A stretch of 64,000 bases of DNA from Hellea sp. (GTDB lineage Bacteria > Pseudomonadota > Alphaproteobacteria > Caulobacterales > Maricaulaceae), in assembly GCA_020628425.1 (NCBI GenBank), contig JAHDEZ010000092.1, positions 1-64,000 of the forward strand, written 5' to 3'. The notes below the pieces were generated by a model that saw only the letters and a program-made list of their open reading frames with translations, was not told the origin of the DNA and made no database searches. This document shows, one piece after another, positions 15,073 through 58,844 of the stretch (its first letter is position 1; the number at the start of each line of letters is the position of its first letter). Both the position numbers and the translations under genes were made by a program.

Positions 15073-15095
15073 AGCGCTATTTCAGGGAGTAGACA

Positions 15096-15866: not shown

Positions 15867-15878
15867 AGCGGGATTGCG

Positions 15879-32600: not shown

Positions 32601-32636
32601 TTTGCAGAATGCAAATCCATTTGCGCAAAATGCAAT
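32601..32636. promoter_or_regulatory. Two candidate enhancer (UAS) sites upstream of H-NOX operon
   Basis: TTTGCA-GAA-TGCAAA (32601-32615) and TGCGCA-AAA-TGCAAT (32622-32636), centres 21 bp apart. Confidence 0.6.
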
Positions 32637-32675
32637 GAATAGCCGCTAAATCAGTGTAAAACCGCCTTAAAAACA

Positions 32676-32692
32676 CGGCATCGGCTTTGCAA
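32676..32692 (+). promoter_or_regulatory. Sigma54 (-24/-12) promoter for H-NOX operon
   Basis: cGGCATcggctTTGCaa, GG-N10-GC spacing. Confidence 0.7.
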
Positions 32693-32722
32693 CACTCCTT
32701 TTGAATATTGAAAGGAATGGCC

Positions 32723-33268
32723 ATGAAGGGTGTAGTGTTCACTGAATTTTATGAATTTGTCGAAGAGGCATTTTCGCCCCTGTTTTTGCAGGAAATTATT
32801 AATGCATCTAATCTGAAATCTGAAGGCGTTTACACAGCAACAGGGACTTATCCATTTTGTGAAATGGGCACTTTGGTCACTCAAGTGGCAGCAAAAAGTG
32901 GTGAAGATGTACCAAAGCTCTTAAAGGGATTCGGGCATCATCTCTTCTGTTATTTCTCTAAGAGCAGCCCGCAGCATTTTGAGGGTATTGATAACAGCTT
33001 TGACTTTCTCAATCATGTGGAAAGCCATATTCATAAGGATGTCAGAAAACTATATCCCGATGCGGAACTCCCCCGGTTTGATTGTTTGGAACATAGTGAC
33101 CGACGATATGTCATGATTTACAAATCCGCTCGCGGATTAGGAGATTTATGTGAAGGCCTGATTGAGGGCTGTCTTCAGTTCTTTGGAGAAACGGCCACAA
33201 TCGAACGCGAACTATTAGCCGCAGAACCGGTCACCGAAATACGATTTGCGATCCAAAAGCTGTCATGA
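32723..33268 (+). CDS. H-NOX (heme NO/oxygen-binding) sensor protein
   Basis: MKGVVFTEFYEFVEEAF N-terminus; proximal-His region HIHKDVRKLYPDAELPRF; YxSxR motif YKSARGLGDLCEGLIEG. Confidence 0.93.
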   Translation: MKGVVFTEFYEFVEEAFSPLFLQEIINASNLKSEGVYTATGTYPFCEMGTLVTQVAAKSGEDVPKLLKGFGHHLFCYFSKSSPQHFEGIDNSFDFLNHVESHIHKDVRKLYPDAELPRFDCLEHSDRRYVMIYKSARGLGDLCEGLIEGCLQFFGETATIERELLAAEPVTEIRFAIQKLS

Positions 33269-34587
33269 CCGATAGCACAACCCTATATCGACAAATTGCC
33301 GAGCGTGAACGTAAATCCAGAAAGGCTGCGGAACGCCTGCTTGAGGAAAAGAGCTTAGTTTTAAGCGAACAAGTCTGTGCGTTTGAAAAGCAGGTAGAGG
33401 AATATGGCGCATTAAATTCCATTCTGTCTAATGTCATGCTTGCCTCGCCGGACAGTATTATTACTTGCGGACCAGACTTTCGGATTTCTGGCATGAATAA
33501 AACCGCCGAAGATTGGTTTGGAGACACTGAAGCGGCCTTAGTCGGTGCGCCAATCAGCACACTGCTACCAATCGAGGATATCTTAGAAACATGGCCGTCT
33601 CCGGGTGAAGTCTACATTGAACGTATTGAGCTCAAGCCAAATAACAGGCCAGAATTCCCAGTCGAAATTCGTGGTAACATTGGTATGCGCGGAGATGAAC
33701 GTTGCCATGTGGTTCTGTTCATTCATGACATCACCCGCCGTGAAAAAAATCAAAAAGAACGAGAGCAACTTTTGTCTCGGGTCAATGAATCACGTCGGTT
33801 GGAGGCGATAGGCACTCTATCATCGGGCATTGCTCATGAAATTAACACGCCACTGCAATTTATTGGTGATAACGTACAATTTGTAGCTTCAGCCCTCTCC
33901 AAACTGCATATATCGTACAAAGATCACCTAGATGTTACGTCGAAGCTTAGGACGTATCCAGAATTTAGCGAATCATTCAAACACTCGGATTTACCCCCAG
34001 AAAGCGAAAATCATGACGAAACCATCGGCGATATTCGAGAGGCTCTACGAGATACAATAGCCGGCATCAAAGAGGTCAAAGACATCATTCATGTCATGCG
34101 GGATTTTGTGCATACAGGAAAGCGAAAAGAAAATGGCGTTGATATAAATGAGCTCATTTCAAACGCATTAAAACTTTGCCGCAACCGGTTTAAAGATGAG
34201 GCCAATCTCATATGGACGCCTTCTGAAAATCTACCAGAAATCGGTTGCTACCGAGGGCAAATTCAACAGGTTTTTGTCAATATCATCGTCAATGCCTTAG
34301 ATGCGCTTGAAGAATATCAACCTGAAAACCCGTCAATTAAGATTTTCACAGAAGTCGACTTTGAACATCTCCATGTGATCATCGCAGATAATGGCCCTGG
34401 AATTCCTCCGCATATTCAAGAGAAAATATTCGATCCTTTTTTCACTTCCAAAAAGGTCGGAAAGGGCACCGGACAGGGGCTGGCCCTCGCTAAAGACATC
34501 ATTGTTAATCACTCGAATGGCAGTTTGGAAATCACTGAAATTGAAGGATTTAAGACGGCCTTCAAAATCTCTCTCCCCATTTATTAA
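33265..34587 (+). CDS. PAS-domain sensor histidine kinase (H-NOX-associated)
   Basis: ATGA overlap with H-NOX gene; PAS; SSGIAHEINTPLQFI H-box; DNGPGIPPHIQEKIFDPFFTSKKVGKGTGQGLALA. Confidence 0.93.
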   Translation: MTDSTTLYRQIAERERKSRKAAERLLEEKSLVLSEQVCAFEKQVEEYGALNSILSNVMLASPDSIITCGPDFRISGMNKTAEDWFGDTEAALVGAPISTLLPIEDILETWPSPGEVYIERIELKPNNRPEFPVEIRGNIGMRGDERCHVVLFIHDITRREKNQKEREQLLSRVNESRRLEAIGTLSSGIAHEINTPLQFIGDNVQFVASALSKLHISYKDHLDVTSKLRTYPEFSESFKHSDLPPESENHDETIGDIREALRDTIAGIKEVKDIIHVMRDFVHTGKRKENGVDINELISNALKLCRNRFKDEANLIWTPSENLPEIGCYRGQIQQVFVNIIVNALDALEEYQPENPSIKIFTEVDFEHLHVIIADNGPGIPPHIQEKIFDPFFTSKKVGKGTGQGLALAKDIIVNHSNGSLEITEIEGFKTAFKISLPIY

Positions 34588-34601
34588 AAAGGAAAAATAA
34601 A

Positions 34602-35732
34602 ATGACTTTAAGAAAAATATTATTCGTCGATGATGACCCGCGAATATTGTCGGCCATGAGACGTCGATTTGCCAATGATTTTAATCTCGTAACATTTGAA
34701 AAAGGCCATGAAGCCGTCACTTATATAAGGTCCAATAACGATATCTCAGTTTTGGTTGCCGATATGCGAATGCCGGGAATGGATGGTTTGGAACTTCTCA
34801 AGCACAGCCAGGAAATTCGTCCGGATTTAAAGCGAATAATGCTAACCGGAAATTCAGATCAAAAAACAGCCGTTGATGCTATTAACGAAGGCCGGGTCTT
34901 TCGCTTCCTAAAGAAACCCTGTGACGCATCGGAGGTTAAAGCCGCAATCAAATTAGCCATAGAAGAGTCAGATTTTTCAAAAGCTGATATTGGGCAAATT
35001 CAGGAACAGATGGTTTCTAATTCCAAAGATACCGATCAGCAGGGACTCTTCCTGTCCGTTATGAGCGAAGAGCTTCGTACGCCTTTGTCGCAAGTCATAT
35101 CAATCTCAGATACGCTGAATAAACAGGAGCTTCTGATTAATGAGCGGGCCCGCGCGCGAATGCTTCGGCAAATCGGTGAGGCCGGGAAGAATGCCTTGTC
35201 TAGAGTGGACCGAATTTTGACTTTTGTAAAACTGCAATCAGCTGTGCCAGGTAAAGGTAATTCCGAGGTTAGGCTGGATTTAATAGCAGCTGAGGAAATC
35301 GCCCGTTTCAGAGCCCGTGCCAGCGAAAGAAATGTGACAATTTCTTTTGAATCAAATCTGGTTCCTGTGGTCGTTAGATCTAGCGAAGAAAGCCTTCGTG
35401 TCGGGATACGGGAGTCCTTGGATAACGCCGTGAAATTTAATCAAGACAACGGACATATTAGCGTTCAAATCAAAGCCAATAAGGAAAAAGCGGCCATTAG
35501 AATTTCGAACACAGGCTCAAATATGTCAGAGCATTCGTCGTCTTCGGATAATGTATTCAAGCCTGCGGATGCTGGGCTCAGCCGCGAAAATTATGGAATG
35601 GGCCTTGGGGTGTCACTTATCAATGCAGCGGCTATTTCAGGTGGATATAATTATGACATCTGGCCTCGCAAAGATGGCGGTGCCTGGGTTACATTTGTGT
35701 TTGAAACCTGCTCGGAAGAGGAACAGCCTTAG
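34602..35732 (+). CDS. Response regulator receiver domain fused to degenerate histidine-kinase-like domains
   Basis: REC: ILFVDDDPRILSAM...VLVADMRMPGMDGLELL; kinase-like VMSEELRTPLSQV (His replaced by Glu) and NTGSN/GMGLGVSL. Confidence 0.88.
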   Translation: MTLRKILFVDDDPRILSAMRRRFANDFNLVTFEKGHEAVTYIRSNNDISVLVADMRMPGMDGLELLKHSQEIRPDLKRIMLTGNSDQKTAVDAINEGRVFRFLKKPCDASEVKAAIKLAIEESDFSKADIGQIQEQMVSNSKDTDQQGLFLSVMSEELRTPLSQVISISDTLNKQELLINERARARMLRQIGEAGKNALSRVDRILTFVKLQSAVPGKGNSEVRLDLIAAEEIARFRARASERNVTISFESNLVPVVVRSSEESLRVGIRESLDNAVKFNQDNGHISVQIKANKEKAAIRISNTGSNMSEHSSSSDNVFKPADAGLSRENYGMGLGVSLINAAAISGGYNYDIWPRKDGGAWVTFVFETCSEEEQP

Positions 35733-35817
35733 ATAGTTTTAAAGGCATTATTAACCATGTTGCACGACTGAATATTAAACCCTTTATGAGATATTTGTTC
35801 CCTATCGGGAGCGAATA

Positions 35818-37833
35818 GTGGACAGTTATTTAATAGGAATAAGTGCCGCTGTTTTCTCATTTTGCCTAGGTTACGGCTTTCGTCGTTTAAACTTGAAATG
35901 GGAACAACAGGCCAAAAAAGCAGAACGGCAAGCGAATATGCATGCCGAGCAACTGCAAGCTACTGTTTCGGCGTCTCTAGATGGAATTATCGTTATCAAC
36001 TCAAATGGTGAAGTCGTAGATTTTAGCGATTCCGCCGAACGGATATTCGGCTATAAACGGGCCGATATTCTTGGTCTTCCTATGGAGGAACTGATTGTTC
36101 CGAAGCGGTATCGAGACGCCCACAACGCCGGAATGAAAAGGATGCGTGATACGGGTAAAAGTAAAATTCTGGGACAGCGGATTGAGATTGAAGCCATGCG
36201 AGCCGACGGGACCGAATTCATGTCTGAACTCGCCATATCAAGAAGCCCGAGTGAAAAAGGCGACATTTTTATAGCCTATATTCGTGATATTTCTGAACGA
36301 ATTGCGGCGCAAAATGAGCTTGTAAAAGCAAAAGAAGACGCCGAGGCCGCAAGCGAAGCAAAATCGCGCTTTCTGGCAACGATGAGCCATGAAATTCGAA
36401 CACCATTTAATGCTGTTTTGGGTCTTCTCGACGCAATCGGCGAAACCAAGTTAAGTGCCGAGCAACTCCACTTAGTCAAAACCGCTGAAGTGTCATCGAT
36501 TGCTTTGCTGAGAATTATTAATGACGTCCTCGACTATGCCCGATTGTCTTCTGATCAGGTCAGTATTGCTGCCCACTCGTTCCAGGTTAGTTCTGTCTTT
36601 GATGATGTATTGCAATTATTTAGACATCAAGCGGCGGATAAGGGATTAGCCATCGAACTGATTGCTGACCCTGATTTAGAGGAAATTTATCTTGAAGGAG
36701 ATCTAGGCCGAATTCGCCAAATTCTGGTTAATTTCATCGGTAACGCGATTAAGTTTACAGACAAAGGCAAAATTACTCTAACCGTGAAATCTCTACGCCG
36801 GGATGATGGGCTTTATGAACTATTCTGTTCGGTGGAAGATACTGGTATTGGAATCGAGACGAAGAACCTCGATATGCTTTTCAACGAATTTTATATGACC
36901 GACAGTTCTGAAACACGAGAATTCGGAGGAACCGGATTGGGGTTGGCTATATCAAAAGAGTTAGCTGAGTTGATGGGAGGAAAGATCGGCTGCGACAGCA
37001 TTGTGGGCAAAGGATCAACATTTTGGGTCAAATTTTTTCTTCCTAAATCTTCTCCGCAGAAAACAAATGTCAGATATAAGAAACATGACATCAAAATGGA
37101 AAACTGCCGGATATTGGTAGCCGAAGATAATCTGACTAATCAGATGGTTATTCGGCATTCTTTGGAAAAGCGATGCGGTAAACTTGTTGTTGTTGATAAT
37201 GGGATGGAAGTCTTAGATGTTTTGAAACACGAAGAGTTTGACTTAATCCTCATGGATATCTTCATGCCCAAAATGAATGGAAAGGAAGCGACCCAAATTA
37301 TTCGCGCCTCAAATCACAGCTTTCAGAATATTCCAATAATAGCTTTAACTGCCATGGGGAGTTTCCAAGACTTAGAAGAATTGAAGGCTGTTGGGATTGA
37401 TGAGGTTGTCACAAAGCCTTTCAAAAAAGAAGACCTGTTTTCTGCAATCGGCAGTCTTTTGGGCAATAGATCAAAACCCAAATCTCATGAAAATCTTGAA
37501 TTCGGTGGATTTGCAAATCAACTGGATGCTGATGAAATTTCCGTTTTTTGTGAACAACTTCGCACAGATCTGACGGAAATTCACAAAATGTACTTAGAGG
37601 CTTTCGAGAGAAAAACATGGGAAAAGCTAGCAAGACCAAGCCACACTTTAAAAGGGCTTTCCGGGACCTATGGTATGACAGCTCTGTCCGAAATGGCCGA
37701 GCAAATGAATGATATAGTCTTATCAGAGGCTTATCAAAAATGCCCCGAACTGGCCGAAAGCATAATAAAGTCATTGTCGCATTATTTGAGTAGTCTTGAT
37801 GGCCTTTTTGAGGACGTTAAAAAGGCGGCATAA
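35818..37833 (+). CDS. Hybrid sensor histidine kinase: PAS-HisKA-HATPase-REC-Hpt
   Basis: PAS; ATMSHEIRTPFNAVLGLLDA; DTGIGIETKNLDMLF; REC LILMDIFMPKMNGKEA; Hpt SHTLKGLSGTYGM. Confidence 0.93.
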   Translation: MDSYLIGISAAVFSFCLGYGFRRLNLKWEQQAKKAERQANMHAEQLQATVSASLDGIIVINSNGEVVDFSDSAERIFGYKRADILGLPMEELIVPKRYRDAHNAGMKRMRDTGKSKILGQRIEIEAMRADGTEFMSELAISRSPSEKGDIFIAYIRDISERIAAQNELVKAKEDAEAASEAKSRFLATMSHEIRTPFNAVLGLLDAIGETKLSAEQLHLVKTAEVSSIALLRIINDVLDYARLSSDQVSIAAHSFQVSSVFDDVLQLFRHQAADKGLAIELIADPDLEEIYLEGDLGRIRQILVNFIGNAIKFTDKGKITLTVKSLRRDDGLYELFCSVEDTGIGIETKNLDMLFNEFYMTDSSETREFGGTGLGLAISKELAELMGGKIGCDSIVGKGSTFWVKFFLPKSSPQKTNVRYKKHDIKMENCRILVAEDNLTNQMVIRHSLEKRCGKLVVVDNGMEVLDVLKHEEFDLILMDIFMPKMNGKEATQIIRASNHSFQNIPIIALTAMGSFQDLEELKAVGIDEVVTKPFKKEDLFSAIGSLLGNRSKPKSHENLEFGGFANQLDADEISVFCEQLRTDLTEIHKMYLEAFERKTWEKLARPSHTLKGLSGTYGMTALSEMAEQMNDIVLSEAYQKCPELAESIIKSLSHYLSSLDGLFEDVKKAA

Positions 37834-37855
37834 GCGGGAATAAGGGGAGCCAAAA

Positions 37856-39292
37856 ATGGCCGGAAAAAATAAAATATTGATCGTGGAAGATACGCTTTCC
37901 ATGGCGCTCATGTACGAGAAAATGCTCAAACGAGAAGGCATTCGTTCTGAGCTTTGTCAAAATGGAAGGACTGCGCTTGAAATGTTGAAAACTGGCGAGT
38001 TTTCAACGGTATTATTAGATCTGCAGTTACCAGAATTGAGCGGGATCGAAATCCTGCAGGAAATGCATACTTCGCCTCATGAAGTGACGTTCATTGTCAT
38101 CACGGCGAATGGTTCTATTTGCGCCGCCGTGGATGCCATGCGTTTGGGGGCTTATGATTTTTTAATTAAACCCTTCACCGAAGAACGCATGCTGACATCT
38201 GTTAAAAACGGATTGGAACGAGCTAAACTGAGACGTGATGTTCAAAAACTGTCCAAAAATGCGGCAGGCAACCTTCCTGGATTTATTGGAAGATCTGATG
38301 TCATGAAGTCGGTTTATTCGACCATTACCAGCCTGGCCAATTCTAAAGCTCCTGTTTTCATTACAGGCGAGTCAGGTACGGGGAAAGAAGTAACGGCACG
38401 GGCTCTCCATGAAACTGGAGAGCGTAGAAAGAAACCATTTATCGCCATCAATTGTGCGGCTATTCCAGACAACCTGATGGAGTCCGAGATTTTCGGCCAT
38501 GTCAAAGGAGCTTTTACGGGCGCTAATGAGGCCCGAAAAGGGGCGGCCAGTATGGCGAATGGCGGGACTTTGTTTCTTGATGAAATTTGCGAAATGGATA
38601 TCGGGCTGCAGGCCAAACTCTTGCGTTTTTTGCAGACTGGACAGATCAAACGGGTCGGAAGTGACTGGCAAGAAGATGTGGACGTTCGTGTCGTTTGCGC
38701 AACCAATCGTGACCCTATGGTGGAGGTTGCAGAAAAGCGGTTCCGCGAAGATTTGTTATATCGTCTAAATGTTCTGACAATAGACTTGCCGCCGCTGCGC
38801 GCCCGAGATGAAGATATTGTATTGCTTGCTGATAATTTCTTGCAAAAATATGCGGATGAGGAAGGTAAATCTTTTAACACTATTGCATTGGAGGCCAAGG
38901 ATCTTTTGCTCGGTCATGATTGGCCGGGTAATGTAAGAGAGCTTCAAAATACCATGCGTAAAGTGGCTGTTTTGTTTGATGGTCCTATATTGAACGCAGA
39001 CATGCTCCAACTTCAAAAACGAATTGTTAGCAATCCGGCAGATTTCGAATTGATCCAATCCGTTGAACCTGCTGTCATAGCCAGTCAAGCAGCGAATAGT
39101 TTGGCGATTAATCTGGAACAACCCTTTGCAGATATTGAACGCGAAATTATCGAGGCCGCGATAGAGCTTAGTGGCGGCAGTATTCCAAGGGCAGCTGATA
39201 TGCTTTCTTTGAGCCCGTCAACGATATACCGAAAAAAAGAAGGCTGGACCGAACATGATAAGCCCGCAACGGCCGAAGCCATCGCGGTCTAG
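37856..39292 (+). CDS. Sigma54-dependent response regulator (NtrC family)
   Basis: REC LLDLQLPELSG; AAA+ GESGTGKE, GAFTGA motif; C-terminal Fis-type HTH AADMLSLSPSTIYRKK. Confidence 0.96.
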   Translation: MAGKNKILIVEDTLSMALMYEKMLKREGIRSELCQNGRTALEMLKTGEFSTVLLDLQLPELSGIEILQEMHTSPHEVTFIVITANGSICAAVDAMRLGAYDFLIKPFTEERMLTSVKNGLERAKLRRDVQKLSKNAAGNLPGFIGRSDVMKSVYSTITSLANSKAPVFITGESGTGKEVTARALHETGERRKKPFIAINCAAIPDNLMESEIFGHVKGAFTGANEARKGAASMANGGTLFLDEICEMDIGLQAKLLRFLQTGQIKRVGSDWQEDVDVRVVCATNRDPMVEVAEKRFREDLLYRLNVLTIDLPPLRARDEDIVLLADNFLQKYADEEGKSFNTIALEAKDLLLGHDWPGNVRELQNTMRKVAVLFDGPILNADMLQLQKRIVSNPADFELIQSVEPAVIASQAANSLAINLEQPFADIEREIIEAAIELSGGSIPRAADMLSLSPSTIYRKKEGWTEHDKPATAEAIAV

Positions 39293-39315
39293 CTTCCCAG
39301 CCTTAGGCGCCTAGT

Positions 39316-40740
39316 TTATATTTCGCAGGCCTTCATTACCCCTAGACTTTGGGCCAGGCGGGCTTCGCCCGCTTTGAGTTCAGCCCGGGCTATTCCCTCA
39401 CGCAGCACAGACAGCTCGCGCAATAATTCTTCTTTGATAAGATATATCTCGCGGTTCGCTCCCGCTTTAACGTCCGCATCAAGCTTTCCTGTAATGCCAG
39501 CCTGTAAATCCTTAGCCTTCCACGCCAAGTCCATCTCGGCATTCAGGTTGTTTACATTTTCCAAAGCCAAAGCGACTTGTGCCATGATTGAGGTTGCGAT
39601 CAAATCTAACTCGTTTTGCTCAAGAGACAAGCGAGCCTTTCCCTGACGTTTAGTCTGTCCGATTTTCAAAAGGCCAATGACATCCCAAGACAGATTTACG
39701 CCGGCTGAAAGGAAGTCCTTATTGAGGGCAAAGCTATTGGTGTCATTATTGGCTGACATGAAGACATTCAGGCCTGGAAGACGCCGCAATATGCCCTGCT
39801 CATTTTCAAGTTTGGTCTGATCAATATTATAGAGAGTCCGGCGTAGCTCTGGACGGTTCTCAAAAGCGCTGATGAACATGTCATCCAAGTCTCCTTCCAA
39901 AGATGAACCGAATTCACCGCCTTCTAGGGAGGCATTTTGATCGACGGCGAATTCGGCTCTGTGGGGGATGTTTATTAGTTTTTTCAAGTCGGACTCAGCA
40001 GAAGCCAGGCCGCGATACATGCTTTCATACCAACGTTTTATATCTATCAATTCACGTTGATACATCCACTCAGGGAGTTCTTGCTCGGCGCTTTTGGAGG
40101 CCTCCAGATTTGACAATTCCAGGCCATAATTAATACGGTCATTGAGCCATTTCCGCTTTTCGGTGGCGCGATCATAAGCAGCCTTCCGCCAGAAGGCACG
40201 CTCAACGTCAACCATCAACTGATGACAGCCAGCCCGGTTGCTTTCCATGGCGTCATAGCCTTTAATCGACGCGCTGGCGTTTTTATGACTGGACAATGCA
40301 AGGTCCAGCATGTTCCAGGTCAGAGTAACATTTGTATTCGCGTAAGCATTGTCCTGAGCCGTATAAAAATCTTCCGGCATGGGGGTTCCGAGATCATCCA
40401 CTCTAACGCCAACGGATGCATTGGTATTATTCCGCCAGCGTCCGAAGCTATTGGTATAGATTTGCGGCAGCATGGAGCGAGCTTGCGCGTTTTCTCCATC
40501 AAGCTGAACCATCAGGCGATCCACACGTTGACGATAGTCAAGGTTGCGCGTAATCGCCATCTTACGGGCCTGTTCCAGAGTCAAGGGAGTGGTTTCGAAT
40601 CCGTCTGGCAGCGTACTGGACTGCAACAAGTCTTGGGCCACAGCGGACATGTTGTTTTCCGAATATTGGACTGGCGTGCTGGCACAAGCCGCGAAAAGAG
40701 ACGCTGACCCCGCTAAAAATGTTTTAAATAAGTTACGCAT
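39316..40740 (-). CDS. TolC-family outer membrane efflux lipoprotein
   Basis: MRNLFKTFLAGSASLFAACAS lipoprotein signal; long alpha-helical OEP-type repeats; start at 40740. Confidence 0.85.
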   Translation of the reverse strand: MRNLFKTFLAGSASLFAACASTPVQYSENNMSAVAQDLLQSSTLPDGFETTPLTLEQARKMAITRNLDYRQRVDRLMVQLDGENAQARSMLPQIYTNSFGRWRNNTNASVGVRVDDLGTPMPEDFYTAQDNAYANTNVTLTWNMLDLALSSHKNASASIKGYDAMESNRAGCHQLMVDVERAFWRKAAYDRATEKRKWLNDRINYGLELSNLEASKSAEQELPEWMYQRELIDIKRWYESMYRGLASAESDLKKLINIPHRAEFAVDQNASLEGGEFGSSLEGDLDDMFISAFENRPELRRTLYNIDQTKLENEQGILRRLPGLNVFMSANNDTNSFALNKDFLSAGVNLSWDVIGLLKIGQTKRQGKARLSLEQNELDLIATSIMAQVALALENVNNLNAEMDLAWKAKDLQAGITGKLDADVKAGANREIYLIKEELLRELSVLREGIARAELKAGEARLAQSLGVMKACEI

Positions 40741-40765
40741 GATTAATACCTTTCTTGCCTCTATA

Positions 40766-40783
40766 GTTGCAAGCAAGGGGCCA
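40766..40783 (-). promoter_or_regulatory. Sigma54 promoter for tolC-like gene
   Basis: Minus strand tGGCCCcttgcTTGCaac, GG-N10-GC. Confidence 0.6.
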
Positions 40784-40844
40784 TCTAGTGTCTTAATAAA
40801 AACAATGGTTTAGATGGTTAAAAGCCGCCTAACGCTTTCACGTC

Positions 40845-40879
40845 ATTGCGAAATGCAAAGAAAATTTGCACGATGCGAA
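40845..40879. promoter_or_regulatory. Two candidate UAS sites upstream of tolC-like gene
   Basis: ATTGCG-AAA-TGCAAA (40845-40859) and TTTGCA-CGA-TGCGAA (40865-40879), centres 20 bp apart. Confidence 0.6.
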
Positions 40880-43870
40880 TCAGCGCAAAATTTCATAGGT
40901 CATGGCATCAAAAGTTATTTGAACAGAGAGGTCCTCTATTTTGAAAGCACCTGGAATGATATGGCCAGCTTTCTGTTCGATCCCATTGACCTTTGCCAAA
41001 TCTGTTGATCCGATAATAGTTGGAAATTCTGGACGCGGAATCCGCACAATTCGTGTTTCGCCAGGTCTCAAACTTTCCTGGATGTAAAAGGGAATAGTTG
41101 CAAATTTTTCGTCCTTCGAGACCGCGATTTTCAGCTGTAATGTATTGATGATTTTTGTACCATAATTCACGATTGTAAACACGAGATCGCCGTTATCAAA
41201 ATTGGGGTTTTGTATAGCGAGAGATTTATACATATCCGGAGCGCAGACTGTTGATTGGATATTAATAGATAGATCTTTAGGATTTTCCGAAAACTCCGGC
41301 ACTGAAAACTGTTTCGGGTCATAAGCAGTATTAAAGCTTGCCTCAGAGATTTTTAGATAGCCTTCAAATTCCACAATATAAGGAGACGTCTCTCCAGGCA
41401 AAAGGCGATGAGCACCAAGCCTCCCCATATTTTGACTGACCATAACTTCCCCGTCCGCCGCCATTGCATTGGCTCGCAATTGAACACAGGCGGGGAAGGG
41501 TGATGTATTGGTCAACTGGCCCGTGACAAAGAAACGTTCTCCGTCTTTATATAAGTAAGCTTTTGTTGCAGAAATTCGTGGTCGTTGCAGTTTAGCGACT
41601 TTTTCCTGACCGGGCCTGACAATATTTCGGCTGGTTTGATCAAGGAAATCGTTCTGCGAGTCTTGAATAACAATGTTTTGGCTAAACTGTGGAGCAGGGC
41701 TTTCATAGACGATTTTGTTGTCAACTACCAAATGAGTTTTCAAGATATCTTTATAACCAATGGCTGTTAGATATTTAAGTTTTGTGGTAATGAGAGTATT
41801 GTTTTGACTGTATACCTCGGCTCCGATTAACTTACCATAGGATGGCAATAGCCCGCCTCTTAGGCGCTGATCTCTTAAATAGTCGGCATATGTTATATCC
41901 GTGTCCAATAAGCCGAAGGCCTGGTCATATTCTCGAAAATCCAGATGCCCATAATATTTCACTATAAGATCTTGGTCCGATAACGGTCTGGATTTGGAAT
42001 TAAAAATTTGAACATATAAAGTCACGAATACCGCGATCAATAAAAAGGGTAGAGTTCGAACGGCCCAAATCATGCCTTTTGAGACCAAACTATTTTCAGG
42101 CGTATATGGCCGTAGAAATCCCTGATGGCTTTGTGAAATCAACTTACCCTTCGCCGCTAACAGCAATAAAGACAAAAAGGCCAGACTTAGACCTGTAATT
42201 GGAACGATACCCCACCAATAAACCTGATAAGCCGGGAGTTCTCGTTTAGGCCGTATATCAGGGAGAGGCGGAATATTGGCCTTCTCCCAAACCATCAGTC
42301 CATTGCTGAGACGAACGACGGGATTCCAGCCAGTATAATGTAAAAGCGGATCATAGTATTCGTCATTTGAGAAAACATATTTGAGGTGAAACTTGTCAGC
42401 ATTCGTCAAAAACTGATTCAGAGAGGCCAACCCCGGCACGCCTGCATATTTGGAGTTTTCCAGCCGCTCAACGGCGTAATTAGTCAGGGACGGCAGACGG
42501 CGGGCGGAATTGTAGTTTCCGTCAACCGACTCCGCGTTGATCAGCGCGCTATGATAAGCAAACTGATCGCCCAGCCCCAATGTCAGATATCTCCATTGAT
42601 TATGGCCATCCTCATCCATGAACTTAACGATGGGCGCCGGGTCGACAAAATCCGGTTGCGTCGGCCGAACCTTAGGTAACATGGCCACGGCGACAGGACC
42701 AATGGCATAGATGGCAAAAACGAACACGAGTAGGAGTCTTGCGCCCAGCTCACCAAATGCATTGTTCAAAACTGATCTGGCGCGCCCCTGCAGCAAGGAC
42801 AAAGCCAGAAGTCCCGCGAAAGGGAGGATCAAAAGTGTTGCCCAGAAAGTGAAACGATCCAAAGTGAGGATATCGAATGCGCCGCCCAGAATGATTTTCG
42901 GTATGGGCGTTGTCCCGCCTGTCCCTAAAACGAGCGCAAATAATATGGTTGCGCCAAGAGGCCAAGGGGCGGTCCGGAGTTTGAGGACGACATAAGGCAA
43001 AACAAAAATCAAAAGTCCCCAAGGAATAGCGAAAAACATCAAACCCAGATTAGGTTTTTCAATAAAATTCTCGCGGCTTCCATGGGGAATGCTGACTTGA
43101 GTGATCGGATCTGTGATGGACCAGTACCAATAGGGAAAGACTATTCCGACAATGAGCATAAGCATACATACCCCAAGCACAATGCCCCGAGTTGGCGCAG
43201 TTAACCATCGCGCTAATTCTGATTTTGAAAATGTGATTTTCTCATTTGGTGCGGAAGTCTTTAGATGAGCGATCCATGCGGCGAGCCCTATTGGTGCCAC
43301 AAAGAAGATGGTACCAAACAAAGGAGTAACATGATGCGCAGAAGTCGCCCCGGCGGTAAAACAGAGCGCGAAACAGAGTTGCTGCCAACCACCCTTTTCG
43401 ACCCATCGGGCCATATGGGGCATAGCATTTAAGAAAAGTGCGATAGAAAATATGGTTGGAAGTTGTCCAAATAGATGAACGGTTTCGGCGATGGATGTGG
43501 AAAAAACCGTTAAAAATGCGGCAATGGCGGCCGCCTGCTGCGAGACCCAGATTTGACTGAAACGATAAATGCCAATGGTCAACAGAACAATGGCCCCGGT
43601 CATAACAGTGACAAAGGCAGCTCGCATATCCATAAAATTCATGAGAATAGCCACGGACTGGTGGCTGCCAGGCGGGTAGGCCGTTACCGTAAACCCAGTG
43701 TACCAACGGGTTTCCCACGGGTCGAACCACTGCCGATGATAATGGTCCGCGAAAAACATATGAATATAGGCGTCATAGGTTTGACTATAGGTAAACGGCA
43801 GCAAAGCTCCATGAAGGAGCAATGCCAGTACAATTGCCAAATAGGCTAGATTTCGCGCTTGCCAGGTCAT
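40880..43870 (-). CDS. Large polytopic membrane protein (6-pyruvoyl-tetrahydropterin synthase-related / glycosyltransferase-like)
   Basis: Multiple TM segments, FTYSQTYDAYIHMFFADHYHRQWFDPWETRWYTGFTVTAYPPGSHQ; soluble C-terminal domains. Confidence 0.7.
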   Translation of the reverse strand: MTWQARNLAYLAIVLALLLHGALLPFTYSQTYDAYIHMFFADHYHRQWFDPWETRWYTGFTVTAYPPGSHQSVAILMNFMDMRAAFVTVMTGAIVLLTIGIYRFSQIWVSQQAAAIAAFLTVFSTSIAETVHLFGQLPTIFSIALFLNAMPHMARWVEKGGWQQLCFALCFTAGATSAHHVTPLFGTIFFVAPIGLAAWIAHLKTSAPNEKITFSKSELARWLTAPTRGIVLGVCMLMLIVGIVFPYWYWSITDPITQVSIPHGSRENFIEKPNLGLMFFAIPWGLLIFVLPYVVLKLRTAPWPLGATILFALVLGTGGTTPIPKIILGGAFDILTLDRFTFWATLLILPFAGLLALSLLQGRARSVLNNAFGELGARLLLVFVFAIYAIGPVAVAMLPKVRPTQPDFVDPAPIVKFMDEDGHNQWRYLTLGLGDQFAYHSALINAESVDGNYNSARRLPSLTNYAVERLENSKYAGVPGLASLNQFLTNADKFHLKYVFSNDEYYDPLLHYTGWNPVVRLSNGLMVWEKANIPPLPDIRPKRELPAYQVYWWGIVPITGLSLAFLSLLLLAAKGKLISQSHQGFLRPYTPENSLVSKGMIWAVRTLPFLLIAVFVTLYVQIFNSKSRPLSDQDLIVKYYGHLDFREYDQAFGLLDTDITYADYLRDQRLRGGLLPSYGKLIGAEVYSQNNTLITTKLKYLTAIGYKDILKTHLVVDNKIVYESPAPQFSQNIVIQDSQNDFLDQTSRNIVRPGQEKVAKLQRPRISATKAYLYKDGERFFVTGQLTNTSPFPACVQLRANAMAADGEVMVSQNMGRLGAHRLLPGETSPYIVEFEGYLKISEASFNTAYDPKQFSVPEFSENPKDLSINIQSTVCAPDMYKSLAIQNPNFDNGDLVFTIVNYGTKIINTLQLKIAVSKDEKFATIPFYIQESLRPGETRIVRIPRPEFPTIIGSTDLAKVNGIEQKAGHIIPGAFKIEDLSVQITFDAMTYEILR

Positions 43871-43877
43871 GGAACTA

Positions 43878-45125
43878 TCAGCGTACTCGCCTCAATAAAT
43901 ATAGTCCAACGCCTGCCAGCCCTAAGCCAAAAACCAGAAGTTTTACCTGCAAGAGCGAACCATAGCTGAGCGCCGGGTTCAAACAGATCATAAATGAAAC
44001 GCCCAAATAATAGATTAAAGCAAGACCAATCAAAATAGCCGGTGCCCCTTTATGTCCTCTGGCCAGTAATGCGACCACAGCCAGTTGCACACCGACCATG
44101 GACGCGCCGATGGCACCCGCAATGACAACCATGGGCGCGAGATCTATATAATTATGGCCCAAAAACAGACTGACAAAAAAGTCGGGTTTTACGCCAATCA
44201 CCAACAGGGCCAGACCGCTCAAAATAATCATAACCATAAGGAGTTTCATCAAAGCCTTTAGAGCGATTTTCTCTGACGCGGCCTGCCCGATGACAAATGG
44301 CTGCAAGACTGTGGCAAAGGACAAAAATGCAAAGAAAAATATTCTCTGGATCAATAATAAACCAGCAGCCCCGCCTGCAACCGTATCTGAGAACATGGCC
44401 TTCGCAATGAAAATATCGCCGTCAAGTGCCAACACTTGCGCGAGAAATATAAGACCATAGGGCCATGTTGTTTCAAAAATCGAAATACTGGTTTGTTTCG
44501 ACGATTTTAAGGCCTCAAAATCGTAACGATCCATGGTAAAAATGAGGCCTGCCAAAACCGATAAAATCAAGGCGATGGTTATTCCCGTCATTCCAAAGCC
44601 TGCATTCCACATCAACCAGCAACCGAACAGACGGATAATCCACTCCGCTTGAAACGAGCCGACCATTTTTGGCAAATGGGTTTGCCCCTGCGCTAAGCCT
44701 CTGTAGATGATCATGGGGAGAAAAAGCGGTATGGCGAGAAAAAGGCTGATCAAAGACAGAATATTTTCGAAATTTAGCAAGGCGGCAATCCACTCTACTG
44801 CCATGATCAAAACAAAGCATAGGGGCACGGTAATAAAGAGACTGCGTCTCGATAGGCTTGCGGATAACACCCGTGCTTTTATGGGGTCTGTTTTGGCGCT
44901 GACTTCCGATACACCAAATTGTAACGCTGAAAATATTGATAGAAGGCCGAGTTTTATTGACATAAGCAAAGTCAAATCCGCGAACTCAGCGGGACTCATC
45001 AAACGCGCAAAAATCATATTGAAAGCTAGATTTGCAACATTTGCGATATTTGCTGATATGAAGATGACAAGCGCTGGTCCTAAAAAACTTCGGTGCTGGG
45101 TAAATCTTGATGCGAGGCGCGACAT
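43878..45125 (-). CDS. Oligosaccharide flippase-like (MOP superfamily) membrane protein
   Basis: ANIANVANLAFNMIFARLMSPAEFADLTLLMS; multiple TM helices. Confidence 0.8.
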   Translation of the reverse strand: MSRLASRFTQHRSFLGPALVIFISANIANVANLAFNMIFARLMSPAEFADLTLLMSIKLGLLSIFSALQFGVSEVSAKTDPIKARVLSASLSRRSLFITVPLCFVLIMAVEWIAALLNFENILSLISLFLAIPLFLPMIIYRGLAQGQTHLPKMVGSFQAEWIIRLFGCWLMWNAGFGMTGITIALILSVLAGLIFTMDRYDFEALKSSKQTSISIFETTWPYGLIFLAQVLALDGDIFIAKAMFSDTVAGGAAGLLLIQRIFFFAFLSFATVLQPFVIGQAASEKIALKALMKLLMVMIILSGLALLVIGVKPDFFVSLFLGHNYIDLAPMVVIAGAIGASMVGVQLAVVALLARGHKGAPAILIGLALIYYLGVSFMICLNPALSYGSLLQVKLLVFGLGLAGVGLYLLRRVR

Positions 45126-46283
45126 TTAAACCTCCACCGCATCAAAAAGCGCATTTTCGCCGACTTTGCCTGGGGCACCTTTGACGTTCGTGCAGTCAAC
45201 GGTAGCAATAAGCCCGGTGTTTTTAGCTGCTTGAAGGACAGTCTCATGTTCAGGAAGTCTTATTTTGATATGGACGCCTTCAAGCTTCAACCTATCACAG
45301 GCTCCCGCCAGAGCCGTAAAAACGGATGGGTCAAATGTTTCGACTGCGCACAAATCCAGAATAACGCCGGGAGCTAAAAAATCCACGAATGCCGGAAGAT
45401 CATCAATTAAAGCAAAGGATAAGTGTTTTCCCGCGCGCAAAGTTTGATAGTCTTTAATAGCATGATCGTCGCGGCGGCGTGAATAATGTTCCCGGATCTT
45501 CCATTGATTTGCAATCAATCCCAGCATTTTAAAACCGCTTTTGACAACGTCGGAGGTTTTAATTTTCGACCCAGCGATCTCAGTCCATTCAATGACGGGA
45601 AATTCGAAAAATTTGTTCCGTTTCTTTTTATCGGGATCCGAAATACGAAGGAATAGTTCGACATCAAATAACCAGCCAGCGGTAAAAGGGTTTTCCAGAG
45701 CCCGCCAAAAAGCCGGAGTGTTTCTAAAAAGCTTAGCGCCGCATTGCGTATCACTAATCGGCAAGCCAGTGGCAAGACGCCCCAATGTTGCGCAGACTCG
45801 GGAAATAATTTTTCGGTGGAGCTCACGATAAACCCTGTGACCAAGCCCGCCTTTCCGAGAGCCGAAGACGACGTCAATTTCCGGCATGCGATCCGCGACA
45901 GAGGCGAAATCCAGAACGGCATCAATCGGCGTGGCTAGATCTGCGTCCAAAAAGGCAATATATTCATGGCCCCGTTTGGCTGCAAATTTTAGTCCTTGTC
46001 TGACCGCCTCGGCTTTGCCGCCATTTTGTTTCATAACCAGCGCATCAATTTTATCGGGTAATGCCGCGATGGCACCGCATAACAGGCTAATGGTTTGATC
46101 TTTGGAGCCGTCATCGACAAATATCAGACGCAAATCATCGGTTTGACGGGCAAATTCTACGAACGCGTCCAAAGCAAGGCGCTGGGCTTCGTTATAACAG
46201 GGAATAATAACTGCAATCTTTTCGGGTCTCCAAGGCTGGATCTGATTGGCTTGCATCATTTTTTTTGTGGCAGTTGCTAACAT
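45126..46283 (-). CDS. Family 2 glycosyltransferase (dolichol-phosphate-mannose-synthase-like) with C-terminal STAS-like domain
   Basis: VIIPCYNEAQRLALDAFVEF...FVDDGSKDQT...LDADLATP; C-term GVILDLCAVETFDPSVFTALAGACDRLKLEGVHIKIRLPEHETVLQAAKNTGL; start set at 46283. Confidence 0.82.
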   Translation of the reverse strand: MLATATKKMMQANQIQPWRPEKIAVIIPCYNEAQRLALDAFVEFARQTDDLRLIFVDDGSKDQTISLLCGAIAALPDKIDALVMKQNGGKAEAVRQGLKFAAKRGHEYIAFLDADLATPIDAVLDFASVADRMPEIDVVFGSRKGGLGHRVYRELHRKIISRVCATLGRLATGLPISDTQCGAKLFRNTPAFWRALENPFTAGWLFDVELFLRISDPDKKKRNKFFEFPVIEWTEIAGSKIKTSDVVKSGFKMLGLIANQWKIREHYSRRRDDHAIKDYQTLRAGKHLSFALIDDLPAFVDFLAPGVILDLCAVETFDPSVFTALAGACDRLKLEGVHIKIRLPEHETVLQAAKNTGLIATVDCTNVKGAPGKVGENALFDAVEV

Positions 46284-46310
46284 GGCAAAATCTCCTTTGC
46301 CCTCACTGTC

Positions 46311-46325
46311 GCAAAAAGCAGGCCT
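46311..46325 (-). promoter_or_regulatory. Sigma54 promoter for glycosyltransferase operon (minus strand)
   Basis: Minus strand aGGCCTgctttTTGCg, GG-N10-GC. Confidence 0.5.
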
Positions 46326-46374
46326 GAAATTTCGCCGTGTTTTGGCCGGTTTTCTTCGCAGGCCGCGAATCTCG

Positions 46375-46389
46375 TTTGCATTTTGCAAT
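46375..46389. promoter_or_regulatory. Shared UAS in divergent intergenic region
   Basis: TTTGCA-TTT-TGCAAT; about 70 bp from both divergent -12 elements. Confidence 0.6.
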
Positions 46390-46439
46390 AACATTTTTTG
46401 TATTTTCGGAGTTTTGAGCAAAAATGCTTTAAAAAAACC

Positions 46440-46456
46440 GGGCACAGGCTTTGCAA
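46440..46456 (+). promoter_or_regulatory. Sigma54 promoter for 46481-49879 operon
   Basis: gGGCACaggctTTGCaa, GG-N10-GC. Confidence 0.75.
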
Positions 46457-46480: not shown

Positions 46481-47158
46481 ATGAAGACTATGCCCGTTTA
46501 TATTATTATGTCGCTTTTGGGCTCTGTGCCCCAGCCATCATTTGCTCAAAATAATTGTTTGATTGAGCCACATAAAGCCATTTGTAAGACCGAGAATATA
46601 AATCTCTATGTCGGACCTCAATCCGTCGAACCTGGCGAAGATATCTTCATCGCCGTCGAAACATTGACCGGTTCGCTGGAAAGCAGTCCTGCCACCAGCG
46701 TCACCATAATCGATGCGGATTCAGGCCGACAATATCAGGCTGAAGTTGAGCAAGGCCTGGCCTATATCGAAATAAAGGCGCCAACCCAATCAGGGCGTCT
46801 GGTGTTTACCGCCCAAACAGGCGACGTGAAGTCTGGGCCTGCTGAGGTTCTTGTTCATCCCGCGCCGGCGCGTTCATTTGCGCTGTTTATCGAAAAAAAC
46901 AAAGGTCAAATTTTTGTCTCATCTTCAATAATCGCTGATGCTTTCGGAAACTTTATTGATGACGGCCAAAGTGTTTCTATCGAGCTTCTGAATAAGTCAG
47001 AGGTCTACGGTACCTGGCAAACAAGAACTGAAAATGGTCGAATGGGCCTTCATATAGATTGTGATAGTGTCCGGGATACTGAGTCCCGTTTACGCGCTCG
47101 GATAGGTCAAATCACGAGTGAACTTCCCATTCCTGCCTTTATTTGCGGACAGTCCTGA
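46481..47158 (+). CDS. Secreted hypothetical protein (Ig-like composition)
   Basis: Signal peptide MKTMPVYIIMSLLGSVPQPSFAQ; beta-rich sequence. Confidence 0.7.
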   Translation: MKTMPVYIIMSLLGSVPQPSFAQNNCLIEPHKAICKTENINLYVGPQSVEPGEDIFIAVETLTGSLESSPATSVTIIDADSGRQYQAEVEQGLAYIEIKAPTQSGRLVFTAQTGDVKSGPAEVLVHPAPARSFALFIEKNKGQIFVSSSIIADAFGNFIDDGQSVSIELLNKSEVYGTWQTRTENGRMGLHIDCDSVRDTESRLRARIGQITSELPIPAFICGQS

Positions 47159-47160
47159 TC

Positions 47161-48636
47161 ATGCGCCGGCGTCATCTATTTCCCGCTATGTTGCTTGGTG
47201 CCTCTGCGCTTTGGTCTATGGCCGCCGTTTCTTTCAGCGCGCCGTCTCAAAGCTATGACTATCTCGACGCTCTTGTTGTCGACGAGCGCTATGCGCACGG
47301 AACAATTTGGGAGGATGTCGATATTGCCCATGCCCATAAATTGTCCGACCAAGATGAACTTCTTTTTATTAAAATGCTGGAAGCTTTTGATGGACCATCA
47401 CAAGGCAATCCTTCAAGGCCTCTTTTTCTTGACCAGGCGAAATCATCGTTAGAGCAAAAAAAATGTCAACGCTTTGCAGAGCCTTGTGAGGTCAAAATTC
47501 ATCTTAACAGAACCGTTAAGCCGAGTTTGATTCACGGCGATTTAAGATTGGTGCAGTTGCGGGAGACGTCCATTGTTCAAGAAGTATCTCTGTACGAAAA
47601 CAAGATTGAGTTTGGCGCGAAATTTGAAGAAAGCCGAAATATTCGGTTTATGCTGACTGAACGTGGTTGGGTGATCAAATCGGGCGAACACGTTGCCAAT
47701 GATCCATTTGAACTCAGTCCCGCCGAGAGCCTGGATACAGGGAAAATGATCGGGCTGAATTACTACCCACAGAGCGCGCCTTGGGACCAGTTTTGGCCAG
47801 AATTCCCGGTCGCTGACATTGAAAACGACCTGGATATGGTCACAGGTCTTGGTGCCAATGCCTTGCGCATATTTATCCAACACGACTATTTTGCCAATTT
47901 GGACACGCAAAAAGACGGCCTCACCAAACTTCGAAGGTTTCTGGATTTATGCGAAGACCGCGAAATCAAAGTCATTGTCACATTGTTTGATTTGCGCGCA
48001 GATTACCGTTTGCAAAATTGGAGCCGTGACTCTGTCCATATGAAGACCATACTCAATGCTATTCATGAGCATCCCGCTCTTCTGGCGGTTGATTTGAAAA
48101 ATCAGCCTGATTTGGATTTTGAAGGGGCAGGACAAAATCTTGTAACGGCCTGGCTCGACGCTATGATTGCAAGCGCTCAGCAAAATCATTCGGATATACC
48201 GCTGACGATTGGTTGGTCGGATCCTAGTAAAGCCACTCTTTTATCAGAGAAACTCAATCTGGTTTCTTTTCATGATTATAGTCATCCCAGCGGGCTTTCG
48301 TCGCGTCTCCATGCCGTCCAGCAAAGTGCAGGAGACAAACCGGTATTTGTTACAGAAATCGGACACAGCCGCTGGAGCCTGTTCGGCGAAAATTCGGACA
48401 AACAGGCTGCGCGCCTTTCCGAGCAACTAGAAGAACTCGCCAATGCTGATGGGGTCTTTGTGTGGACCCTGCATGATTTCGACGAAATCGGCGCAAATAT
48501 AGTCGGGTATCGCCCCTGGCGCAAAGCTCAGCAAAAAGCCTACGGCATCCTCACAAGCGAGGGCGATAGGCGCCCTGCGGCTGAAGCGCTTTACACCTTC
48601 AATCAAACTTTTCTTTCGACCCCTAAAGGAGACTAA
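47161..48636 (+). CDS. Exported protein with glycoside-hydrolase-like (TIM-barrel, GH5/GH-A-like) region
   Basis: GLNYYPQSAPWDQFWPEFPVADIENDLDMVTGLGANALRIFIQHD; LNLVSFHDYSHPSG; KPVFVTEIGHS; DGVFVWTLHDFDEIG. Confidence 0.7.
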   Translation: MRRRHLFPAMLLGASALWSMAAVSFSAPSQSYDYLDALVVDERYAHGTIWEDVDIAHAHKLSDQDELLFIKMLEAFDGPSQGNPSRPLFLDQAKSSLEQKKCQRFAEPCEVKIHLNRTVKPSLIHGDLRLVQLRETSIVQEVSLYENKIEFGAKFEESRNIRFMLTERGWVIKSGEHVANDPFELSPAESLDTGKMIGLNYYPQSAPWDQFWPEFPVADIENDLDMVTGLGANALRIFIQHDYFANLDTQKDGLTKLRRFLDLCEDREIKVIVTLFDLRADYRLQNWSRDSVHMKTILNAIHEHPALLAVDLKNQPDLDFEGAGQNLVTAWLDAMIASAQQNHSDIPLTIGWSDPSKATLLSEKLNLVSFHDYSHPSGLSSRLHAVQQSAGDKPVFVTEIGHSRWSLFGENSDKQAARLSEQLEELANADGVFVWTLHDFDEIGANIVGYRPWRKAQQKAYGILTSEGDRRPAAEALYTFNQTFLSTPKGD

Positions 48637-48637: not shown

Positions 48638-49879
48638 ATGACCACACTTGCTCTAATTTCTGCTTTTCTGCCTGCCAGAAATTCTCTTAATGAATATGGC
48701 TTTCATTTGGCCAAAGCTTTTGCCCGCCGTGATGATATCGAGCGTATTGTTATAATTGCCGATAAGGTGGATGAACTTGAACCGGAACTGCAAATCCATC
48801 CGAAAATCGAAGTGCGTCGTGTTTGGCGATTTAACAAAATTTCAGCGGCGCTGGATATTGTAAAGGCCCTGAAAGAAGTTAGCCCTCATTATGCACTTTT
48901 TAATCTGCAAACGGCATCTTTTGGCGACAAGGAAATTCCAGCGGCGTTGGGTTTGTTTGCGCCAATGTTAAGTCAAAAAGCCAAAATCCCAACGGGCGTC
49001 ATTATGCATAATCTCATTGATGCCGTTGATCTTAATCAAACAAATTTGGCGGGACACAATTTTCGTCAAAAGATCGTATCTTTTGCAGGTACGGTTTTTA
49101 ACAAGGTCTTGCTGAGTTCAGGCTATGTGAGTGTCACGCTCGATAGTTTTCTCGAAATATTGCATCACAAATATAAGGCGGAAAATGCCTTCCTGGTGCC
49201 ACATGGCTCATTTAATTGTGAGAAAAGCGTCGATGTTCCCAAACTTTCAGCACGGCCCAACCGCATTGTGACAATGGGCAAATTTGGCACCTATAAAAAA
49301 CTCGAGCGGATGATCAGTGCGGTGCAGCGCCTAAATAAGGAAAACTATGCGGCCCGTCCAATCGAACTGGTAGTCGGAGGTTCAGACCATCCGGCAACGA
49401 ATGGGTATATGGACGAACTCCGCGCCCAACATGCCAATGATAAAAACATCGTCTTTCATGGCTATGTTGCCGAAGAGGATGTGCCAAAATTCTTCAAACA
49501 AGGACGAGTCGCCGTGTTTGATTATGACAGCACAACCGGCAGTTCAGGGGTTTTGCATCAAGCCGCTACGTTCGGTACAACACCAATTTACCCACTTATG
49601 GGAGACTTTATCGATGTCACGCAGCGCGAGGGCCTGAAAGGTTTCAATTACATCCCGCTGGATGAGGATAGTCTGATGCAGACCATAGATAAGGCTTTAT
49701 CTATGCCCGAAAAGGCCCAGCAGATCGCGGATAGTAACCTGTCGGTTTCCAAGGTCCTTTCAATGGATATCATCGCCGCCATGCATATGAGGCTATTGGA
49801 AGGCGTTGAACGCTGCCGCTTTTATAAGCTCAGAAACTCAACCAAAAGAGCTCTATGGTTACGGCCCAGGGTTCTATAG
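48638..49879 (+). CDS. Glycosyltransferase (GT4-like)
   Basis: ALISAFLPARNSLNEYGFHLAKAFARR; RIVTMGKFGTYKKLERMISAV; VAVFDYDSTTGSSGVLHQAATFG. Confidence 0.82.
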   Translation: MTTLALISAFLPARNSLNEYGFHLAKAFARRDDIERIVIIADKVDELEPELQIHPKIEVRRVWRFNKISAALDIVKALKEVSPHYALFNLQTASFGDKEIPAALGLFAPMLSQKAKIPTGVIMHNLIDAVDLNQTNLAGHNFRQKIVSFAGTVFNKVLLSSGYVSVTLDSFLEILHHKYKAENAFLVPHGSFNCEKSVDVPKLSARPNRIVTMGKFGTYKKLERMISAVQRLNKENYAARPIELVVGGSDHPATNGYMDELRAQHANDKNIVFHGYVAEEDVPKFFKQGRVAVFDYDSTTGSSGVLHQAATFGTTPIYPLMGDFIDVTQREGLKGFNYIPLDEDSLMQTIDKALSMPEKAQQIADSNLSVSKVLSMDIIAAMHMRLLEGVERCRFYKLRNSTKRALWLRPRVL

Positions 49880-52193: not shown

Positions 52194-52194
52194 C

Positions 52195-53723: not shown

Positions 53724-53734
53724 GAGAATTAATC

Positions 53735-54064
53735 ATGATGACGATTTTACCCAAATATAAATATTACGCCGCGCCTTTATTGGCCATTGGGCTGGGCTTG
53801 CTGATGTCAGAACCAGCCTATGCGGCAGGGTCTAATATGCCGTGGGAAGGACCGCTCACACAAATCCTCCAGTCCATCGAAGGCCCGGTCGCCAAAATCT
53901 TCGGAACTATCGTGATTATCATGGCTGGCCTCGCTTTAGCCTTTGGCGATACAGGCGGCGGCGTGCGCAAGCTGATCCAGATCGTCTTTGGTCTTTCCAT
54001 TGCTTTCACGGCCACCAGCTTCTTCTTGTCCTTCTTCAGCTTTAGCGGCGGCGCGCTGATTTAA
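53735..54064 (+). CDS. trbC: TrbC (VirB2-type pilin)
   Basis: Signal plus two TM segments, position in trb operon. Confidence 0.92.
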   Translation: MMTILPKYKYYAAPLLAIGLGLLMSEPAYAAGSNMPWEGPLTQILQSIEGPVAKIFGTIVIIMAGLALAFGDTGGGVRKLIQIVFGLSIAFTATSFFLSFFSFSGGALI

Positions 54065-54333: not shown

Positions 54334-54340
54334 ACCTGCC

Positions 54341-58835: not shown

Positions 58836-58844
58836 GAGAGATAC

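Follow-up and report, generated by a model that had tools for sequence, protein, structure and literature searches.

A 64,000-base stretch of DNA from Hellea sp. (hereafter the window; bases 1-64000 of the 73,994-base contig C6, in a genome of 3.07 Mb and 99 contigs) contains what its genes and ends identify as a 62-kb integrative and conjugative element (ICE), and this element very probably carries a self-contained, LuxO-type sigma54 regulon, in which a hybrid histidine kinase would signal to an activator and the activator to four promoters, with the gas sensor H-NOX as an accessory input. An earlier, sequence-only reading of the window had proposed one sigma54 regulon that links a gas sensor to envelope and glycan output by way of an NtrC-type activator. 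The single regulon is supported by a LuxO-type recognition helix that is unique in the genome, by conserved sites and spacings, and by further loci reached through the DNA pattern; the direction of signalling, however, gained no independent support. The protein is indeed a sigma54 activator with the GAFTGA motif (residues 218-223), but its relationship to LuxO, and the accessory nature of H-NOX, had gone unrecognised.

The kinship of the activator with LuxO is apparent at several levels. Its best NCBIfam model is LuxO (NF041946, equivalog) at 530 bits, below the cut-off of 800, and we therefore call it LuxO-type and not LuxO; among solved structures, LuxO 5ep0 comes closest to it. Alanine scanning of V. 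cholerae LuxO identified 11 residues within positions 409-430 as essential for binding (PMC11407668); over this mapped DNA-binding stretch the activator is identical at 15 of 22 residues, and it shares 8 of the 11. A codon scan of the genome for the TIYRK helix found it in the activator only (37856-39292), three other matches lying in short chance frames, and phylogenetically the activator groups with those of homologous clusters in a fully supported clade, from which other alphaproteobacterial LuxO-type proteins stand apart. The genome has one rpoN gene. Sites of the published LuxO type, TTGCAWWWTGCAA (PMC10162802), precede the -24/-12 promoters of the window, although not every site has A/T throughout its middle three bases. 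Among the V. cholerae LuxO sites recovered by chromatin immunoprecipitation is ttgcattttgcaa at qrr3 (PMC10328515), to which window positions 46376-46388 are identical in all 13 letters. By its sequence, the window palindrome is the Vibrio LuxO site.

As the earlier reading had it, four promoters of the form GG-N10-GC are present (Table 1), scoring 8-9 of a maximum of 11 matches to TGGCACG-N4-TTGC; palindromes lie upstream of each, the strong sites at 70-102 bp (all spacings are from palindrome centre to -12 element), and paired sites are 20-21 bp, or two helical turns, apart. Its description of the divergent region needs amending: the strong site does lie 70 and 71 bp from the two -12 elements, but it is not single, having a degenerate partner 20 bp away (46355-46369) whose position is retained in homologues of this region. 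With at most one mismatch, TTGCA-N3-TGCAA occurs four times in the 64-kb window, and each of these sites precedes one of the four promoters by 70-102 bp; the weak site 1b (32622-32636) has three mismatches to the 12 fixed bases.

The geometry is conserved. Across nine loci, the strong site of the divergent region is 70 bp from one -12 element and 71 bp from the other (72 in locus L101), its weaker partner is 50 and 91 bp from the two, and the sites upstream of the TolC-like gene are at 82 and 102-103 bp. At the H-NOX promoter, sites stand at 80-81 and 60 bp both in the window and in L050 (contig C243 of G781, a genome of the same genus). Over eight gapless divergent regions, identity is 83% in the strong site, 77% in its partner, and 83% and 77% in the promoters, against 51% in the rest. 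A ranking of every five-base inverted repeat with a gap of 0-7 (8192 in all) was also made in 17 homologous regions from ten other genomes, the window being left out; these regions were picked for homology to the window promoter regions and come from related genomes, so they are not fully independent. TTTGC-N5-GCAAA ranked first, occurring in 17/17, and TTGCA-N3-TGCAA second; the two are one palindrome, which also takes ranks 1 and 2 of 8192 in the intergenic regions of the window.

Neither the palindrome nor the sigma54 pattern is informative alone, because loose scans for each gave no excess: with two mismatches allowed, the motif of the sequence-only reading was found 38 times in the window (38.9 expected), and the sigma54 pattern alone showed no excess at three mismatches. 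What carries the signal is the strong sites, together with where they lie and how well they are conserved. A motif scan of window and genome, put forward by the earlier reading as a check, accordingly divides: the palindrome alone is not enriched, but a composite pattern of palindrome and promoter (TTGCR-N3-YGCAA, 45-75 bases, GG-N8-TTGC) has four matches in 3.07 Mb, 4/4 at the locus, and its reversed control none. As this pattern was picked after the sites had been seen, independent tests weigh more. Order-wide, 130 of 398 genomes match it, mostly through scattered single matches, and a lone composite match is therefore weak evidence. Blind to genes, the DNA pattern scan nonetheless led to genomes G128, G749 and G755. 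Four regions with several or conserved matches were opened, and three proved to be other Caulobacterales loci with LuxO-type sites (L168-L170), in each of which a hybrid kinase neighbours a LuxO-type activator that has the same recognition helix; glycosyltransferase-like and acyltransferase-like genes adjoin, as judged from sequence starts only. In the fourth (L171, on contig C6 of G193), a composite site at 6937, conserved in a related genome, closely precedes a kinase gene at 7093, and a LuxO-type activator was not found nearby. In other orders, some LuxO-type activators of about 50% identity have sites with promoters within 20 kb (L151, L154 and L162), and most have none within that distance.

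Homologues of the 996-aa membrane protein mark related clusters in nine other genomes of the sampled order. Where the contig allows, these share one arrangement (GT4, GH-like and secreted genes opposite GT2, flippase, 996-aa and, except in L101, TolC genes), with the activator and hybrid kinase close to the glycan genes. Loci L099, L100 and L102-L104 have extra genes for proteins of 489 and about 700 aa between TolC and the activator, the former an MBOAT acyltransferase in the case tested (L099). Neither gene is present in the window or in L098. The core of hybrid kinase, activator, polysaccharide genes and predicted enhancers is, at sequence level, conserved across Caulobacterales. H-NOX has a different distribution. 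No H-NOX match was found in any of the nine core-cluster genomes (five in the order sample, four in a further search), and the window and L050 are the only loci where H-NOX, the histidine kinase HK1 and a receiver-pseudokinase were seen joined to the regulon. Their operon is in line with the hybrid kinase and activator in the window and divergent from them in L050, where it has one strong and one weak site, 80 and 60 bp from the -12 element. HK1 adjoins H-NOX at both loci and at seven more distant H-NOX loci (L021-L027), and as no convincing LuxO-type sites were seen at L021-L049, H-NOX in general is not tied to a LuxO-type regulon. The H-NOX module looks like an add-on whose operon came under regulon control, since it is joined to the core only in the genus of the window, yet its promoter keeps the sites in L050.

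The hybrid kinase is the likely phosphate donor of the activator, because its phospho-motifs are present and the two genes adjoin at every locus where both were captured. Phosphate would pass from its receiver and Hpt domain to the activator, which, once phosphorylated, would bind the TTTGCA-N3-TGCAAA pairs on one helix face, the spacing of about two turns suiting cooperative binding of activator dimers. Bound activator would then loop to sigma54 polymerase at promoters 50-103 bp away, switching on the TolC-like gene and three operons (GT2/flippase/membrane-protein, secreted/GH-like/GT4 and H-NOX). Judging by the flippase, GT2, GT4 and TolC families present, what the regulon yields is probably a polysaccharide of the surface or matrix. 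H-NOX has the HNOB domain, the proximal His102 and YxSxR, and is predicted to bind haem and NO; together with HK1 it would form an accessory NO/O2 input, and as its operon is also a target, the circuit may tune its own gas sensitivity while the polysaccharide programme is on. The third protein of that operon retains a receiver motif. Its L050 counterpart (L050:5946-7094) is likewise a pseudokinase with an acidic residue at the phosphoacceptor position (Glu in the window, Asp in L050).

Some observations weigh against this circuit. The TolC promoter scores just 7/11 in L098, L100, L102 and L104-L106, and L101 has no detected TolC homologue, hence no TolC promoter. Neither a sigma70-type promoter nor a terminator was detected in the interval from the receiver gene to the hybrid kinase, so that read-through from the H-NOX promoter into the hybrid kinase and activator, and hence autoregulation, is possible. 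The palindrome alone occurs at chance frequency genome-wide, with 86 sites at no more than one mismatch and two of the four exact copies away from the locus. Given this, and the further sigma54-activator candidates in the genome, a different host activator of the NtrC family might bind the sites, or they might be AT-rich look-alikes without function. We regard this as very improbable, as it would leave unexplained the exclusive co-location and conserved spacing of the elements, the presence of the palindrome in 17/17 homologous regions, and a LuxO recognition helix found in no other activator of the genome.

Within the LuxO-type circuit, H-NOX may hold one of two places. By analogy with Vibrio H-NOX signalling (PMC8738867, PMC12369376), it could be the main input: NO-bound H-NOX would inhibit HK1, which would otherwise phosphorylate the activator, either directly or via the Hpt domain of the hybrid kinase, so that NO would shut off the polysaccharide genes, in line with V. 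fischeri and V. harveyi. The parts and logic follow HnoX-HahK-SypF-SypG and H-NOX-HqsK-LuxU-LuxO, HK1 adjoins H-NOX at the loci named above, and the H-NOX operon has the enhancer in two divergent genomes. We place this refinement slightly short of an even chance, and the attendant idea, that the H-NOX operon as a target closes a negative feedback loop, is held just as tentatively. The nine genomes with the core cluster lack an H-NOX match, so the relay would work without it; HK1, unlike HahK, has no receiver domain, and a receiver with a degenerate kinase is encoded in the same operon; and both sign and partner are drawn from Vibrio by analogy. Somewhat less probable, in our judgement, is that H-NOX and its two operon partners, HK1 and the receiver-pseudokinase, make up an output branch of their own, which the regulon would co-express but which would not act back on the activator. 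The H-NOX operon is a predicted enhancer target, which would fit such a branch, as would the receiver protein, whose kinase-like end has lost the phosphoacceptor histidine in both copies and which looks like an output or signal-binding protein. Two points argue the other way: in the versions of this genus the module is tightly linked to the LuxO-type activator, and in Vibrio there is precedent for H-NOX feeding LuxO or SypG.

The closest working analogues of the LuxO-type circuit are the Vibrio H-NOX/LuxU/LuxO pathway and the V. fischeri HnoX-HahK-SypF-SypG-syp pathway. The latter likewise combines H-NOX, a hybrid kinase with Hpt, a LuxO-like sigma54 activator and polysaccharide genes. In the window, however, the activator's own enhancer precedes the H-NOX operon, HK1 lacks a receiver domain, the host is outside Vibrionaceae, and the LuxO site differs from the SypG site reported for syp, TTCTCANNNTGMDWN. 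In V. harveyi and V. parahaemolyticus, H-NOX and a kinase (HqsK) feed a LuxO-type regulator via LuxU; H-NOX and HK1 may likewise feed such a regulator here, but in the window the Hpt lies within a dedicated hybrid kinase, all parts are in one mobile cluster, and no quorum-sensing genes were seen. The Vibrio LuxO/qrr system shares the REC-AAA+-HTH activator with GAFTGA, and paired TTGCAWWWTGCAA palindromes upstream of sigma54 promoters; unlike it, the window has an activator under the LuxO cut-off, on an alphaproteobacterial ICE, and its targets are protein-coding operons (glycan export, gas sensor), with no Qrr detected (no Rfam match to Qrr or other known RNA in 28000-52000, at E up to 1). 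In the Shewanella hno loop, too, a regulator of the NO pathway (HnoC) controls H-NOX gene transcription; HnoC is reported to be a repressor relieved by phosphorylation, as opposed to the predicted sigma54 activator with LuxO-type sites in the window. PEP-CTERM exopolysaccharide control by PrsR resembles the present case in having a sigma54 response regulator that drives glycan genes. Identity with PrsR was rejected, as the activator matches TIGR02915 at 385.9 bits, under the cut-off of 502.6, and its best model is LuxO.

More broadly, LuxO-type activators with the Vibrio operator code may run surface-polysaccharide regulons across Alphaproteobacteria, and the ICE may move one whole (sensor, relay, activator, operators and glycan genes), needing only host sigma54, having captured H-NOX as a regulon-controlled gas input, and replacing a decayed copy on contig C18; we hold this wider view with a little more doubt than confidence. 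It would make a complete two-component/sigma54 circuit and its operator code the cargo of a conjugative element, and bring to Alphaproteobacteria two things known from Vibrio, the LuxO site and the pairing of H-NOX with LuxO. In the literature collection searched, no paper on H-NOX in combination with integrative and conjugative elements turned up. Variants that naturally have or lack H-NOX make the plugging of a gas sensor into an existing relay directly testable, and also whether surface-glycan control transfers between bacteria ready-wired.

Table 1. Features of the regulon and of the element that carries it (window positions; -12 distances from site centres).
Feature	Position	Strand	Basis or remark
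attL, 48-bp copy of tRNA-Thr 3' end	801-848		exact direct repeat of 62820-62867
Tyrosine integrase	967-2187	+	PF00589 7e-23; arm-binding PF13356
RlxS-type relaxase	29634-31556	+	NF041267 E=3e-187, below its cut-off; PF11843
Predicted enhancer site 1a	32601-32615		TTTGCAGAATGCAAA, exact; kept in L050 at same spacing
Predicted enhancer site 1b, weak	32622-32636		21 bp from 1a; weak partner in L050 too
sigma54 promoter, H-NOX operon	32676-32691	+	CGGCATCGGCTTTGCA; -12 at 81 and 60 bp from the two site centres
H-NOX haem NO/O2 sensor	32723-33268	+	PF07700 1.1e-37; His102, YxSxR haem motif
PAS histidine kinase HK1	33265-34587	+	intact H-box GIAHEINTP
Receiver + degenerate histidine kinase	34602-35732	+	phosphoacceptor His to Glu; Asp in L050
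Hybrid kinase PAS-HisKA-HATPase-REC-Hpt	35818-37833	+	H-box, receiver and Hpt phospho-site motifs intact
LuxO-type sigma54 activator, REC-AAA+-HTH	37856-39292	+	Pfam domains; SPSTIYRK helix
TolC-like outer-membrane protein	39316-40740	-	PF02321 8.9e-13
sigma54 promoter, TolC-like gene	40768-40783	-	TGGCCCCTTGCTTGCA
Predicted enhancer site 2a	40845-40859		82 bp from -12; position kept in 8 homologues
Predicted enhancer site 2b	40865-40879		102 bp from -12; position (103) kept in 8 homologues
996-aa polytopic membrane protein, possibly GT-C-like glycosyltransferase	40880-43870	-	weak PF10131; kept at nine homologous loci
Polysaccharide flippase	43878-45125	-	PF01943 3.4e-7
GT2 glycosyltransferase	45126-46283	-	PF00535 8.5e-20
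sigma54 promoter, GT2/flippase/membrane-protein operon	46310-46325	-	AGGCCTGCTTTTTGCG; -12 at 70 bp from site 3a
Predicted enhancer site 3b, weak	46355-46369		20 bp from 3a
Predicted enhancer site 3a	46375-46389		common to both divergent promoters; core TTGCATTTTGCAA = V. cholerae qrr3 LuxO site
sigma54 promoter, secreted/GH-like/GT4 operon	46440-46455	+	GGGCACAGGCTTTGCA; -12 at 71 bp from site 3a
Small secreted protein, N-terminal signal-like sequence	46481-47158	+	no Pfam family
GH5-like glycoside hydrolase	47143-48636	+	PF00150 5e-4, below cut-off
GT4 glycosyltransferase	48638-49879	+	PF00534 4e-11
TraG coupling protein, TrbB, E, L, F, G, I	50142-61827	+	NCBIfam and Pfam models
attR	62820-62867		inside tRNA-Thr 62823-62897, minus

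The attribute 'mobile', which the sequence-only reading had given the regulon, is supported in that att repeats at a tRNA-Thr gene, an integrase, a relaxase, TraG and Trb genes delimit a 62-kb ICE, with both ends in the window and the regulon between relaxase and TraG; transfer is predicted from this gene content. Integrase, att repeats, relaxase, coupling protein and type IV secretion genes are all those of an IncP-Trb / RlxS kind of ICE. A second mobile context is likely for the homologous cluster of G716 (L098), because it adjoins a TrbI gene.

A remnant of a second cluster copy was observed on contig C18 of the same genome (3-2275, within L108, C18:1-12000), comprising an HK1 at 67% identity, a partial receiver gene that ends in a stop, 93 bp of the 996-aa gene and a fragment of the GT4 gene; moaA and nuoC/D adjoin it. 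With these neighbours, and no match to the Trb proteins of the window, the idea that C18 holds a second ICE was rejected; the host chromosomal copy seems to have decayed, and the ICE copy appears whole.

The match of the 996-aa family to PF10131 is weak (best 3e-4, in a homologue), and a profile search with the 996-aa protein against solved structures returned nothing meaningful. Relatives, 41-49% identical over part of the length, are carried by Deinococcus plasmids; on Deinococcus aquaticus plasmid pDATS01 (L174, 8785-11949) one lies near glycosyltransferase, STAS, SpoIIE-phosphatase and response-regulator genes. On its left side (3178-19378), the ICE has genes for a TonB-dependent receptor, a CoA-transferase and a secretory lipase/hydrolase, which look like a second, catabolic cargo.

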